In this document: positions 26,620-32,600 of the stretch, one piece after another
How the letters are laid out: every line of letters starts with the position of its first letter
How positions within the stretch are numbered: the first letter of the stretch is position 1
Source: Rhexocercosporidium sp. MPI-PUGE-AT-0058
Taxonomy: Eukaryota; Ascomycota; Leotiomycetes; Helotiales
NCBI GenBank assembly: GCA_020746875.1
Contig: JAGTJL010000002.1
Location: 2,666,001-2,730,000 of the forward strand
DNA length: 64,000 bases
Reading direction: 5' to 3'
The notes under the pieces: model-generated
Database searches by the model: none
What the model saw: the letters and a program-made list of their open reading frames with translations, nothing else
What the model was told of the DNA's origin: nothing
Position numbers and translations under genes: made by a program

Positions 26620-29600
26620 ATGGCTCTCTCCATCCGCTCTGCGGGCCGAACAAGCTCTCTCTTCCGCCAGGTTGGGGCTGTATCCTCAAGTCCCTCCAGG
26701 ACTTTTACTTCTCGAGCTTCCCCTCGTTGCCTCTATGCTAGAAGCCCAGCACAAGTAACAGCTCGCAAGAGTACCGGCTATGTCCGACTTTTCTCGAGCT
26801 CCTGCATCCGCCTAAACCAGACCCAAACCGCCCCGAACGCCAAAGCATACTTGGAGAGCGGAGTCATAAAGGGAGCTGCAAACCCAGTGAATGTCAAGAA
26901 GGTCTTGGTGATTGGCAGTGGAGGATTGAGTATCGGACAAGCAGGAGAATTTGATTATTCAGGTTCGTTGTCCAAATTTCCTCCCTTGACTGAAATGAGT
27001 CACTTTAGGATGTGCTCTGTACGGGGCCTTTCGGTTCTCAAGTTTTGTCTGAGTGCAGCCAAAGATATCTTCCTCTTAGACTAACGTTTTGCCCGCAGGT
27101 TCCCAAGCTTTAAAAGCCTTGAAGGAGGCTGGTGTTGCTTCAGTTCTCATCAACCCCAACATCGCTACTATCCAGACCGCTCACGTCCTCACCGATGAAG
27201 TTTACTACCTTCCAGTCACCCCCGAATATGTCACATACGTTATCGAGCGAGAGAGACCAGATGGAATTTTCCTCACATTTGGTGGTCAGACCGCTCTCAA
27301 CTTGGGTGTGCAGATGGAGCGAATGGGAATCTTCGAACGCTATGGCGTGAAGGTTTTGGGCACAAGCATTAAGACCCTTGAGACCAGTGAAGACAGAGAT
27401 CTCTTTGCAAAGGCTCTTGGAGAGATCAACATTCCAATTGCTCAGTCAATCGCTGTCGGCACCGTTGACGAGGCTTTGGAGGCTGCTAAGGGAATTGGAT
27501 ACCCAATTATCGTCCGAGCTGCATATGCTCTTGGAGGATTGGGTTCCGGTTTTGCCAACAATGAGGAGGAGCTTCGCAATATGTCTGCTCGATCTCTAAC
27601 TCTGTCACCACAAATCTTGGTTGAGAAGTCTCTCAAGGGATGGAAAGAAGTCGAGTACGAAGTTGTCCGTGATGCCAGCAACAACTGTATCACTGTCTGC
27701 AACATGGAGAACTTTGATCCCCTCGGTATCCATACTGGTGACTCCATTGTTGTGGCTCCCAGTCAAACCTTGAGTGACGAGGAATATCACATGCTTCGTT
27801 CAGCTGCCATCAAGATTGTCCGTCACTTGGGTGTGGTAGGCGAGTGCAATGTTCAATACGCCTTGCAACCAGATGGACTTGACTACCGTGTTATCGAAGT
27901 CAATGCCCGTCTTTCTCGTTCTTCTGCTCTTGCCTCCAAGGCTACTGGATACCCTCTCGCGTACACAGCCGCAAAGATTGGTCTCGGACACACCCTCCCA
28001 GAACTGCCAAATGCTGTCACCAAGACTACTACGGCAAACTTCGAGCCTTCTTTGGATTATGTTGTCACCAAGATCCCTCGTTGGGATCTGGCCAAGTTCC
28101 AGCATGTGAAGCGTGACATTGGTAGCGCCATGAAGTCCGTCGGAGAGGTCATGGCTATTGGGCGAACCTTTGAAGAGTCTATCCAAAAGGCCATTCGCCA
28201 AGTTGACCCACGTTTCATTGGTTTCCAGGGCGACAAGTTCGACGATCTGGATTACGAATTGGCCAACCCTACTGATCGCCGATGGTTGGCTGTTGGTCAA
28301 GCTATGCTCCACGAAGGCTATACCGTTGACCGTATCCACGACTTGAGCAAGATTGACAAATGGTTCTTGTACAAGCTCCAAAACATTGTCAACTGCACCC
28401 ATGAGCTTGAGGATATCGGAAGCCTCTTTGGAGTCAACAAGGAGCTCATGATGAAGGCGAAGAAGATGGGCTTCAGTGATCGTCAAATCGCAAAGGCTGT
28501 TGGAAGCACCGAAGATGAAGTCCGCGCCCGCCGAAAGAACTTTGGAATCACCCCTTTCGTCAAGAAGATTGATACTCTCGCCGCGGAATTTCCTGCAGAC
28601 ACTAATTATCTCTACACAACTTACAACGCCACTACTCACGACGTGACATTCGACGATCACGGAAGTAAGTCCTGTCCCGCTCCTTGTTCTGTTAAGCGAG
28701 TCTCGCTCCACAGGAAACAACACTGACTTCTATCCAGCTATTGTACTTGGATCAGGCGTCTATCGCATTGGGTCGTCTGTGGAATTGTGTGTAAACTCTT
28801 CAAATTATTTGAATCAAAGTTCTAACTATTTTGTAGCGATTGGTGCAGTACCTCGTGCGTTCTCGCCTTGAGAGAAATGGGCAAGAAGACAGTCATGATC
28901 AACTACAATCCAGAGGTATGCAACATACAGTTCGACGTAAACAGGGTATTTACTGACACTTCAAAGACCTACTCCACTGATTTCGATACCGCTGACAAGC
29001 TGTACTTCGAGGAGCTGAGTTACGAGAGGTGAGCTATATCTTAGCCATGTTGCACATATATCTCAGTACTTTAAAAGAGCACAACTAACTTCAAGATTCC
29101 CTATCAAGAGTGATGGACATATACGAGCTAGAGCATGCAAATGGTGTCGTAGTTTCTGTCGGTGGTCAACTTCCTCAGAATATCGCTCTTCGTTTGCAAG
29201 AAGCAGGTGGTGCCAGTAAGTAATTCAGTCAATGTCACAAGAATTTGCGCTAACTTTGCCCCCAGAGTAAGTTGCTTCTTCTTTGTCTCACATTGCTGCA
29301 TGTGGCAGCTACACCCCCAGCTCCTTCCTGGAATTAATGAGTCTCCTCTGGATGTGGTAAGTCGGGTAAGTATGGACGGCGCTCCTTCCCTCTGGATGAC
29401 TGCTGAGCAGCAATGACGCACACCTCTTTCTTCGTTACTGCCCCCAACAGTTCTGAGACGCAACTGCCATTCTGGACGACGTCTATATAGGCAGCCTTCT
29501 GGTTCTTCTCACGATGTTCCTCTTCTTTCTCAACAACCTTCACTCTCACCACACCGTGGTCAACAAGTGTACTGTACAATACCTACTGAGCCATTGGCGG

Positions 29601-32600
29601 TAAGTTACATGCCCTCTGTCCAACTCGGAGCGCTGCTAATGCTACCTTGGGATCAGGGGTCCTGATTGACACTCATTCCAAGCTGGTTCCTTGGCCGGAG
29701 ACTGATCATCTGCACCTCTGAATCGGGGCCGTCGATTGGAAGGTGAGTGTCGTGTCCTTATTAATTGTGGGATACAGCTAATTCAGAGAAGTTACTGAAG
29801 ATCATCGCCATCGTGAGCCACGATCTGGTCAGATCAGACGCTGTCCGACTTGGCTGCCTCTAGAGTTGTTGACTGTAATCACGAGTTGTCATCATCACCG
29901 GTCTCCTCAGGTTGGCAGAACCTTCATATTGACGCCGACCATTCTCCCAATATGGCGTTCAAGGCTGCTACCATCCTGCAGTTCGTACTCCTGGCTGCCT
30001 GGACTTGTCTGAATGATACAGCTGTTGGCCAGAAGCATGTCCTCTTCGATCAATATTTCCCCACTCAAGTGCTCTTGAAGGAGATTGCTTCAATGATCAC
30101 CTTGGAGTTCGCGCCTGGACTCTTTCAAGTCCTTCAGGCTGTTACACCTCCTACTATTGCTTACTTCAAGACTCTGCCAATGGATCACACGAAGAAGCGT
30201 TGGGGCATCTACGCTGTCGTTCTTGAGAAGGCTAGGTGCCGACCTCGACTGTACATCGGCAGCGGAACGGACAGCCTCAAAGGTATACATTCACGATTGC
30301 TCCAATATGATACCTTAGGCAGACTCCCTCGGTATGTTCAAAAGTCAGTCGATGAAGGCTACACAATTGTTCACAAGGGTCTGGTCTGTTGGATTCCCAT
30401 CCCAGTAAGTTATCCTCGTTGTCTAGTCAAATTTGAGTGCTGACCTTTGCTAGCACGCCTCTCTGCAACCCGTCATTCGTCTTCTGTTCCTCGCTTTAGA
30501 GGCAACATTTGCCTATATGTTCTGGGCCATGAAGGCTAAGTTCGGAGACTTTGGCATGTCTCACATTTGCCTGTGGGATCGGGCTACTCTGGAGTATGAC
30601 GGCCTTTGTTCTCATCCCAGCCTGAAGGAAGGCCTCCGTGGCGACTTTGGTCTGTCTGCTGAGGAGCTCGAGGTCCTTGATGCTCAGAGGAAGGAGATCA
30701 AGGCTGCAAAGCAGGCTATCAGGGGTGCCAACTGGTACTATCTCAAAATGGCAAATAACCGTGACGAGCATTTGGACCATGTCCTTGAAACCAGCACTGC
30801 TTGGAGAAAGGCAAACCCAGAGAGGCACTTCAACAACAACAAGAGATACATCGCAGACGTCCGCAAGAGCAAGAGGTACCATTGCAAGGTCTGCAATTTC
30901 ACTACTGGCATCAAGACACTGCTCACCACTCACAACAAGACTCCCACACATCACTACAAGGTCAAAAATCTTGAGAGAGACCTCGCAACCAAGCCGCACA
31001 CATGCCGCACGTGTGCCTATGCTACCAAGAAGAAGAGCGAGCTTACACGACACCTCGGCTCAGCCCGCCACAAGAGAAACGTGGCTGTTGAGTCTGCCTC
31101 TTCGAGCTCTGAGCTCGACTGAGGCAACACCACGGATTTGCTTTTTGGAACCTTTTGGAGGAAATCGGTACACCCGATTACCTTGTACCAACATGCCTAC
31201 TTCGGACGCCGTCTGAAACCATCATCATGCCCATCATTGCTCATATCTGGACTTCCGGACCCTGGACTCATTTCATTGTCATCATTATCATGTTCTATCA
31301 CTAACACACCATTCAGAATCTTAGGCACCAACCCTGTTGACATTGACAAGGCTGAAGACCGACAGAAGTTTTCGGAGATTCTTGACAGTATTGGAGTTGA
31401 TCAACCTGCCTGGAAGGAACTCACTTCCGTTGCTGAAGCTGAGGCCTTTGCTGACGAAGTCAACTACCCTGTCCTTGTTCGTCCCTCGTACGTATTGTCT
31501 GGAGCCGCCATGACCGTCATCCATAGCAAGGACGACCTTAAGGATAAGCTCGAGGCTGCAAGCACCGTTTCTCCAGATCATCCTGTTGTGATCACTAAGT
31601 TTATCGAAGGCGCAGAGGAGTTGGATGTTGACGCGGTTGCTTCGAATGGCAAGCTCATTGTCCACGCAATCTCCGAGCATGTCGAACAAGCTGGTGTTCA
31701 CTCTGGAGATGCCACTCTCATCCTCCCACCTGCAACTCTTGATCAAACCACCCTGGATCGTGTCAAGGAAATTGCTGTTAAGGTTGCCAAGGCCTGGAGT
31801 ATCACTGGACCTTTCAATATGCAAATCATCAAGGCTGAGGACCCCAACGGAGGCCTTCCCCAACTTAAGGTCATCGAGTGCAACTTGCGTGCCTCCCGTT
31901 CATTCCCATTCGTCAGCAAAGTTCTTGGTCTCAACTTCATCAGTGTTGCAACGAAGGGTATGTCTCTCCCTTTGTTTTGAAAAATTACAGACACTAATTC
32001 GTTGACTAGCGCTCGTCGGTACAAATGTTCCCGAGCCAGTTGATCTTATGGCTATCAAGCGTGACTATCTCGCTACCAAGGTCCCTCAATTCTCATGGAC
32101 TCGTCTTGCTGGTGCCGATCCCTTCCTGGGCGTCGAGATGTCCAGTACTGGTGAGATCGCCTGTTTCGGAAAGGATCTCGTCGAAGCCTACTGGGCCTCT
32201 CTTCAGTCCACCATGAACTTCCGTATGCCAGAGCCAGGAGAGGGTCTTCTTTTCGGTGGTGATGTCTCCAAGGCGTACCTCGCTACCATTGTTGACTACC
32301 TCTCCCCTCTCGGCTACAAACTCTACGCTGCCGAGAAGGAAGTCAAGGAGTTCCTCGAATCGACCGCCAAGAACAACGTCAAGGTTGAGATCATCGAATT
32401 CCCCACTGAAGATAAGCGAGCTCTTAGAGAAGTCTTCCAGAAGTACGACATCCGTGGTGTCTTTAACTTGGCCCAAGCACGAGGCAAGACTGTTCTCGAT
32501 GTGGACTACGTTATGCGCCGCAATGCCGTCGACTTCGGCGTACCCCTGTTCATGGAGCCCAAGGTAAGCCCTCAAACCTCCTTTCCTTCTATAAATTACT

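Follow-up and report, generated by a model that had tools for sequence, protein, structure and literature searches.

Homing is not, to our knowledge, regarded as a normal way for spliceosomal introns to spread. In viruses this rule was broken by the spliceosomal homing introns of mirusviruses ('shintrons'), which have GT-AG ends, lack group I/II signatures and encode homing-type nucleases (Medvedeva et al. 2025, PMC12768974). The same study states that 132 of 334 shintron endonuclease genes were of the GIY-YIG type, that target genes were preferred, that shintrons reside mostly in virion genes of giant viruses and that the authors saw no equivalents in eukaryote genomes (PMC12768974). The element described here is a 2,050-nt GT-AG intron with a GIY-YIG nuclease gene, located in CPA2, the gene for the large chain of arginine-specific carbamoyl-phosphate synthase (CPSase), of the fungus Rhexocercosporidium sp. 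MPI-PUGE-AT-0058. The analysed window comprised 64,000 nucleotides (C12:2666001-2730000) of a 62.7-Mb genome in 60 contigs, contig C12 being 3.9 Mb long.

In the features tested, the fungal element is also a GT-AG intron without a group I/II signature, encodes a predicted homing-type GIY-YIG nuclease and belongs to a family tied to particular target sites. The fungal elements differ in their location in nuclear genes of Pezizomycotina, in the composition of the nuclease, which joins a GIY-YIG domain to long helices and C2H2 fingers, and in the splicing of the nuclease gene itself. The sequence-only reading had regarded such a life style as undescribed, which the shintrons contradict. Beyond PMC12768974, the titles and abstract starts listed in searches of the open-licence PMC literature (bioRxiv excluded) contained no mention of a spliceosomal intron carrying a nuclease, and the presence of spliceosomal homing introns in cellular nuclear genomes appears to be the new part. 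Fungal nuclear genomes would hold such a family, with conserved hosts including the spliceosome component SF3B1, several target sites and both intact and decayed copies, and homing of spliceosomal introns becomes testable in culturable organisms.

CPA2 lies on the plus strand of the window and its segment matched solved carbamoyl-phosphate synthases. The upstream exon (29109..29215), ending with ..LRLQEAGGA and the first base of the next codon, is followed by an ordinary 50-nt intron (29216..29265, GTAAGT..CCCCCAG), an exon of one nucleotide (A, 29266), the element (29267..31316) and the downstream exon (31317..31957), all on the plus strand. The element has the donor GTAAGTTG, a branch-point-like CACTAAC (31299-31305) and the acceptor CATTCAG, and interrupts CPA2 just before KILGTNP; the single nucleotide keeps the frame (GCC A|A|A ATC). 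In a frame test covering CPA2 from the exon at 27099, with the first CPA2 exon left out, a model combining the two introns with the exon of one nucleotide gave 1,054 codons and a single terminal stop. A single 2,101-nt intron (29216-31316) gave five stops and a single intron ending at 31325 gave four, the frame of the upstream exon with the downstream exons being open only in the two-intron model. Removal of the sequence between the GT-AG boundaries thus restored the host frame, and the intron at 29267-31316 with junctions 29215/29266/31317, as proposed in the sequence-only reading, proved exact. If the inner intron is removed first, the 1-nt exon would not have to be recognised. Pairs of introns separated by hardly any exon are known from stwintrons and micro-exons; the two introns around one nucleotide resemble these, the difference being that one of them is a 2-kb nuclease-bearing element.

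The nuclease of 373 amino acids is encoded from the ATG at 29952 to the stop at 31120-31122, in two coding exons on the plus strand separated by a 49-nt spliceosomal intron of its own (30405..30453), across which relatives align. Exon 1 (29952..30404, residues 1-151) contains GIY (85-87), YIG (101-103) and Arg115, and exon 2 (30454..31122, stop included) contains Glu167, a helical linker and the C-terminus SSSSELD. The GIY-YIG catalytic domain (about residues 81-210, 30192..30630) spans the 49-nt intron, and 30883..31071 encodes two C2H2-type fingers, one at about residues 295-320 and the other at about 335-357. A 3' non-coding tail with the branch-point-like motif and the acceptor occupies 31123..31316. 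Upstream of the nuclease, a TATA-like CTATATA (29483..29489, plus strand) was noted by eye as a candidate promoter.

In the family alignment Tyr87, Tyr101 and Arg115 were each conserved in 118 of 119 filled rows and Glu167 in 119 of 121; the roles of Tyr, Arg and Glu are presumed to be those of I-TevI. Both the fold and the catalytic Tyr, Arg and Glu of the GIY-YIG superfamily were found, and on motif, fold and catalytic residues the predicted protein is assigned as a GIY-YIG-fold, homing-type endonuclease. The intact GIY-YIG protein claimed in the sequence-only reading was thereby recovered, with the Pfam family PF01541 itself unmatched: no match to the window protein was detected at E<=10 and none in the whole genome at E<=0.001, and PF01541 was absent from the 25 listed of 89 families for 121 family members. 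The two zinc fingers of the same reading, placed also by column counts, were below the curated Pfam cut-offs in the window protein and clearer in relatives, PF12171 being matched by 77 of the 121 members with a best E of 9e-14. The longest single-frame open reading frame (ORF), of 201 amino acids, was unremarkable against 300 shuffles (maximum 210), and it is homology, not ORF length, that lifts the predicted nuclease gene beyond chance.

The protein search revealed 194 relatives at E<=0.01, the best being 76% identical over its full length; 120 of them were listed. The closest relative among the matches listed came from Cadophora (Helotiales, Leotiomycetes). The 120 listed relatives, when searched for parts of CPA2, gave nothing convincing, and no relatives of the nuclease were found in viral contigs or, in a near-mode search, on plasmids. 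The C-terminus of otherwise divergent members (window, P0001, P0003, P0031, P0035, P0048) was often (E/K)LD after serines, or similar.

A search of the genome with the nuclease protein at E<=1 gave eight matches in four places, three of them besides the window and all three on the minus strand of C12 (about 2192549-2193575, 2764111-2764620 and 1569073-1569399). All four places with E<=1e-3 were located in same-strand introns of conserved genes, one copy being intact and three decayed. The same-strand flanks carried the Pfam domains Biotin_carb_C, CPSase_L_D2, HMGL-like and PYC_OADA in the pyruvate carboxylase (PYC) host, SF3b1 with HEAT repeats in another and SMP with C2 domains in the third; the names SF3B1 and tricalbin, which go beyond the Pfam matches, are our presumption. 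Junctions of these introns were read by eye and placed by string search. The PYC intron (1,639 nt, C12 minus strand, GACATGCTA^..^AACCCC) carries a nuclease split into three frames. In the SF3B1 intron (793 nt, C12 minus strand, GGGGCAAG^..^GAGGCAACG) only nuclease residues from about 148 onward were found, so both the GIY and the YIG motif are lacking. The nuclease is barely recognisable (E 6e-4) in the tricalbin-like intron (896 nt, C12 minus strand, GGTCTGGAT^..^GTAATTG). The SF3B1 exon occurs once in the genome, so this intron would have to be removed if the SF3B1 gene is needed. Three more query proteins gave only weak additional matches in the genome, on C10 and C13 (E 0.025 and 0.18). 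Homing genes go through a cycle of invasion and decay, which one intact beside three decayed copies fits. All four nuclease places are on C12, as is the clathrin gene, a host elsewhere; this clustering could reflect either local spread or shared linkage of the host genes.

In other fungi the nuclease was met in fused gene models, detected only with long query proteins in which an embedded family consensus served as the scored region. The first consensus gave 27 matches, of which 19 were fungal fusions and eight (P0140-P0147) were dropped as zinc-finger proteins with 17-33% of the query covered; the second gave 12 matches, with seven new fusions and five repeats of the first search. The resulting 26 foreign models join the nuclease to exons of ten conserved host genes: CPA2 (7), URA2-type (3), aconitase (6), clathrin heavy chain (3), PYC (2), and V-ATPase A, F1-ATPase alpha, Hsp70, GCN1 and PMT1 (one each), which with SF3B1 and the tricalbin-like gene of the own genome makes twelve. 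Automatic annotation frequently joins a nested ORF to the exons of its host. Such fused models are annotation artefacts, informative on position only, and suggest that the nuclease sits in an intron in those species too. Three nuclease-length relatives (P0031, P0048 and P0054; 368, 399 and 381 amino acids) were named 'carbamoyl-phosphate synthase cpa2' at source, names that would most simply come from annotation within the CPA2 locus. The claim that a homing-type nuclease gene is housed in a nuclear spliceosomal intron is supported at the sequence level, as is the expectation that relatives occur in introns of other conserved genes. For the aconitase of Zymoseptoria tritici ST99CH_3D1 (P0134), the fused model was one member sequence, with several strains in the taxonomy, a pattern possibly reflecting presence/absence polymorphism or merely differing gene models.

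The junctions, interpreted with host-protein motifs, fell on the following sites. At CPSase site I, MIN^(Y/F)NPET, the host flank ended or started in seven models: the left flank ended there in P0121, P0125 and P0129, the right flank started there in P0124 and P0126, and both flanks met it in P0123 (with MVN) and P0139. P0128 and P0132, in which the right flank starts a few residues downstream, were compatible. P0126, P0129 and P0132 have URA2-type hosts and the remaining six CPA2, and these models came from Sordariomycetes (Neonectria, Chaetomium, Monosporascus), Dothideomycetes (Neocucurbitaria, Meristemomyces) and Eurotiomycetes (Exophiala, Blastomyces). Two trees were built, the first of 57 rows and the second, more careful one of 33, with nuclease ends in fused models trimmed by hand and the tricalbin-like copy left out as too decayed. 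In the 33-row tree one clade (support 99/97) held all nine CPSase site-I rows together with P0122 and the three cpa2-named records. CPA2 and URA2 hosts, as well as fungal classes, were interleaved within it, P0124 being sister to P0132 (100/99), and the site-I label required two changes on the tree compared with a shuffled mean of 7.8 (0 of 500 as low). As judged from these sequences, the CPSase nuclease lineage keeps to its target site in different classes and in both paralogues, CPA2 and URA2. The window nuclease paired with that of Cadophora (100/100) and then with the GCN1 and SF3B1 nucleases (95/91).

Taken together, the data make it probable that the element is mobile and site-specific and represents a fungal spliceosomal homing intron. 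In the proposed cycle, the spliceosome would remove the element and the host gene would survive, and the nuclease would be made from its own transcript and enter the nucleus. Its linker and fingers would bind the conserved empty site and the nuclease would cut near the insertion point, after which repair from the occupied allele would copy the intron in, the insert destroying the site. Occupied and empty alleles could be brought together by crosses, hyphal fusion or gene transfer, allowing spread between species, and occasional retargeting to a similar site could found new lineages. After fixation the nuclease would decay and the intron shrink. Such elements would also offer a concrete candidate for how introns are gained repeatedly at the same positions, and would explain a class of odd fungal gene models.

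Several observations weigh against this interpretation. The pairs at sites ACO-a, CLA-2 and PYC-G do not each form one clade, and lineage specificity for the target, a criterion for shintrons, was found at CPSase site I and not seen for these pairs. Two lineages occupy CPA2 site II, that of the window copy and that of P0122; in P0122, a CPA2 model, the nuclease lies close to the insertion site in the window and groups with the site-I clade, so the region would have been entered twice or by retargeting. All 15 sites jointly required 17 changes, the shuffles averaging 19.5 and 2 of 200 being as low, so it is mainly the CPSase clade that carries the site signal. Host residues were present on both sides of the nuclease in only five of the 26 models (P0123, P0129, P0135, P0137, P0139), on the left only in 11 and on the right only in 10; such models can reveal same-strand insertions only and give the position, not the exact foreign nucleotide. 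Finally, ordinary introns of the own genome were found at, or within about one codon of, seven of the 11 foreign nuclease sites compared, namely the three aconitase sites (a to c) and those of V-ATPase A, F1 alpha, Hsp70 and PYC-G. These comparisons were read by eye, Hsp70 and F1 alpha by interpreting the junction codon and with GCN1 and PMT1 left out. No own intron was observed at URA2 site I or at either clathrin site, and the intron near CPA2 site I is 12 nt away. Set against a by-eye density of about one intron per 250-500 nt in genes of this kind, an informal comparison, the coincidence appears to exceed chance by far. It would mean either that nuclease genes moved into introns already present, or that the ordinary introns are remnants of former elements. 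The V-ATPase A intron and the second intron of the PYC-G pair are members of a dispersed introner-like family.

The coincidence bears directly on the suggestion of the sequence-only reading that the element has its own splice sites. The suggestion is weakened by nucleases that elsewhere often lie where the own genome has an ordinary intron, and it is supported for this copy by the arrangement around the 1-nt exon of CPA2, where the ordinary intron survives 1 nt upstream of an element with a donor, branch point and acceptor of its own, and partly by similarity of the 3' tails. The tail of the CPA2 copy aligned locally with that of the PYC copy with a score of 35 (shuffle maximum 27, 0 of 300) and with that of the tricalbin-like copy with a score of 33 (shuffle maximum 31, 0 of 300), this tricalbin-like alignment extending to the branch-point region. 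The PYC/tricalbin-like pair was weak (4 of 300 shuffles as high), and the three pairs with SF3B1 were not significant (20, 22 and 31 of 300 shuffles).

The tails and the neighbouring ordinary intron have to be set against an explanation in which the intron came first. According to it, the nuclease gene (ORF and flanks) invades existing ordinary introns harmlessly, and the host's intron is immobile as a unit or is moved by co-conversion only. The seven coinciding introns favour this explanation, which has a real, if minor, chance of being correct. The CPA2 locus fits it poorly, as the ordinary intron is still present beside an element with complete splice signals and a non-coding tail resembling those of the PYC and tricalbin-like copies, and URA2 site I and both clathrin sites offer no own intron to invade, the one at CPA2 site I being 12 nt off. 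It is rather unlikely that the element is a relic, once mobile and now immobile cargo in this species: the CPA2 copy retains its frame, splice signals and catalytic residues, although three of the four copies in the genome are decayed and one intact copy cannot show activity. Nested genes exist, and a domesticated or ordinary nested host gene with a cellular function such as DNA repair would agree with a protein that is intact and 76% identical in Cadophora; a dozen different hosts, the decay of other copies within this genome and the mixture of fungal classes in the CPSase clade do not form the pattern of a conserved gene and make this explanation very improbable. An assembly or gene-model artefact joining unrelated sequences can be practically dismissed: nothing here spoke for it, CPA2 sequence flanks the element on either side within a contig of 3.9 Mb, and three more copies in the genome and models from other assemblies display the same association.

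Other classes of mobile sequence were considered for the element and rejected. No Rfam family was matched at E<=1 in 29100-31500, or at the gathering threshold in loci L010-L012, when group I/II intron signatures were looked for; a group I or group II mobile intron was rejected, as no catalytic intron RNA was recognised by Rfam. The nuclease differs from I-TevI-type GIY-YIG homing endonucleases of group I introns in that no group I intron was recognised here, in being below PF01541 detection and in its apparent dependence on the spliceosome. Inteins with homing endonucleases occur in fungal VMA1 and PRP8, and they resemble the element in being selfish nucleases inserted at conserved positions in conserved nuclear genes, V-ATPase A hosting both. 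An intein was rejected, as the nuclease has its own start and stop codons and flanking splice sites, is not in frame with the host and would be removed as RNA. Introners are similar in that the intron apparently carries its own splice sites into an exon; here one DNA-level copy was found in the genome search (a lower bound), nuclease-bearing and tied to specific sites. A high-copy introner was rejected, given this one match and not many near-identical intron copies.

A wider and speculative proposal, considered unlikely, is that such nucleases drive fungal intron gain. A homing intron would invade a conserved exon site and decay by deletion to a short ordinary intron, or an introner-like element would fill the cut site. 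The copies in this genome form a size series of 2,050, 1,639, 896 and 793 nt, and the proposal also draws on the seven coinciding ordinary introns, two of which are of the introner-like family. If this proposal is true, spliceosomal homing introns would be a general class of eukaryotic mobile elements and not a viral oddity.

The remaining sites were located as follows. In aconitase, site a, GGTG(A/S)I(V/I)EY^, was occupied in P0134 and P0151, site b, GWASPK^, in P0131, and site c, between NAC(G) and QWDR, in P0133 (left) and in P0130 and P0149 (right). Four aconitase rows grouped in the first tree (support 84-89) and were unresolved in the second. The V-ATPase A site SIYTG^ was occupied in P0136 and the F1 alpha site APFT^ in P0154. 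The nucleases of these two hosts were sisters (93/97, not starred) on long branches, a pairing that may be long-branch attraction. Read by eye, the V-ATPase A and F1 alpha sites are equivalent positions.

The introner-like family consists of introns of about 100 nt, most starting with GTATGT and containing the hairpin core GGATCAGATCCTTTGTTCTGATC. The 23-nt core was found in 32 places with <=3 mismatches, the reversed pattern in none; copies include C3:1703616 (L080), C12:2194891 (L081), C16:198006 (L082) and C60:2391419 (L083). Among 10 copies inspected, the donor was flagged by script in eight and the branch motif in seven, and by eye all 10 were complete short introns. In the own PYC gene (L010, about 6610-6350, minus strand), two introns surround a 4-nt exon (CCCA) at GAIIT^PHY, which is the nuclease site in Elsinoe and approximately in Oculimacula; the first of them has a TTTGGGATTTTCTTGGGACG stretch that by eye resembles the SF3B1 tail. 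Very small exons (24 and 30 nt) between short introns were also seen by eye at nuclease sites in the own aconitase (L073:1950-2140) and F1-ATPase alpha (L077:1030-1290).

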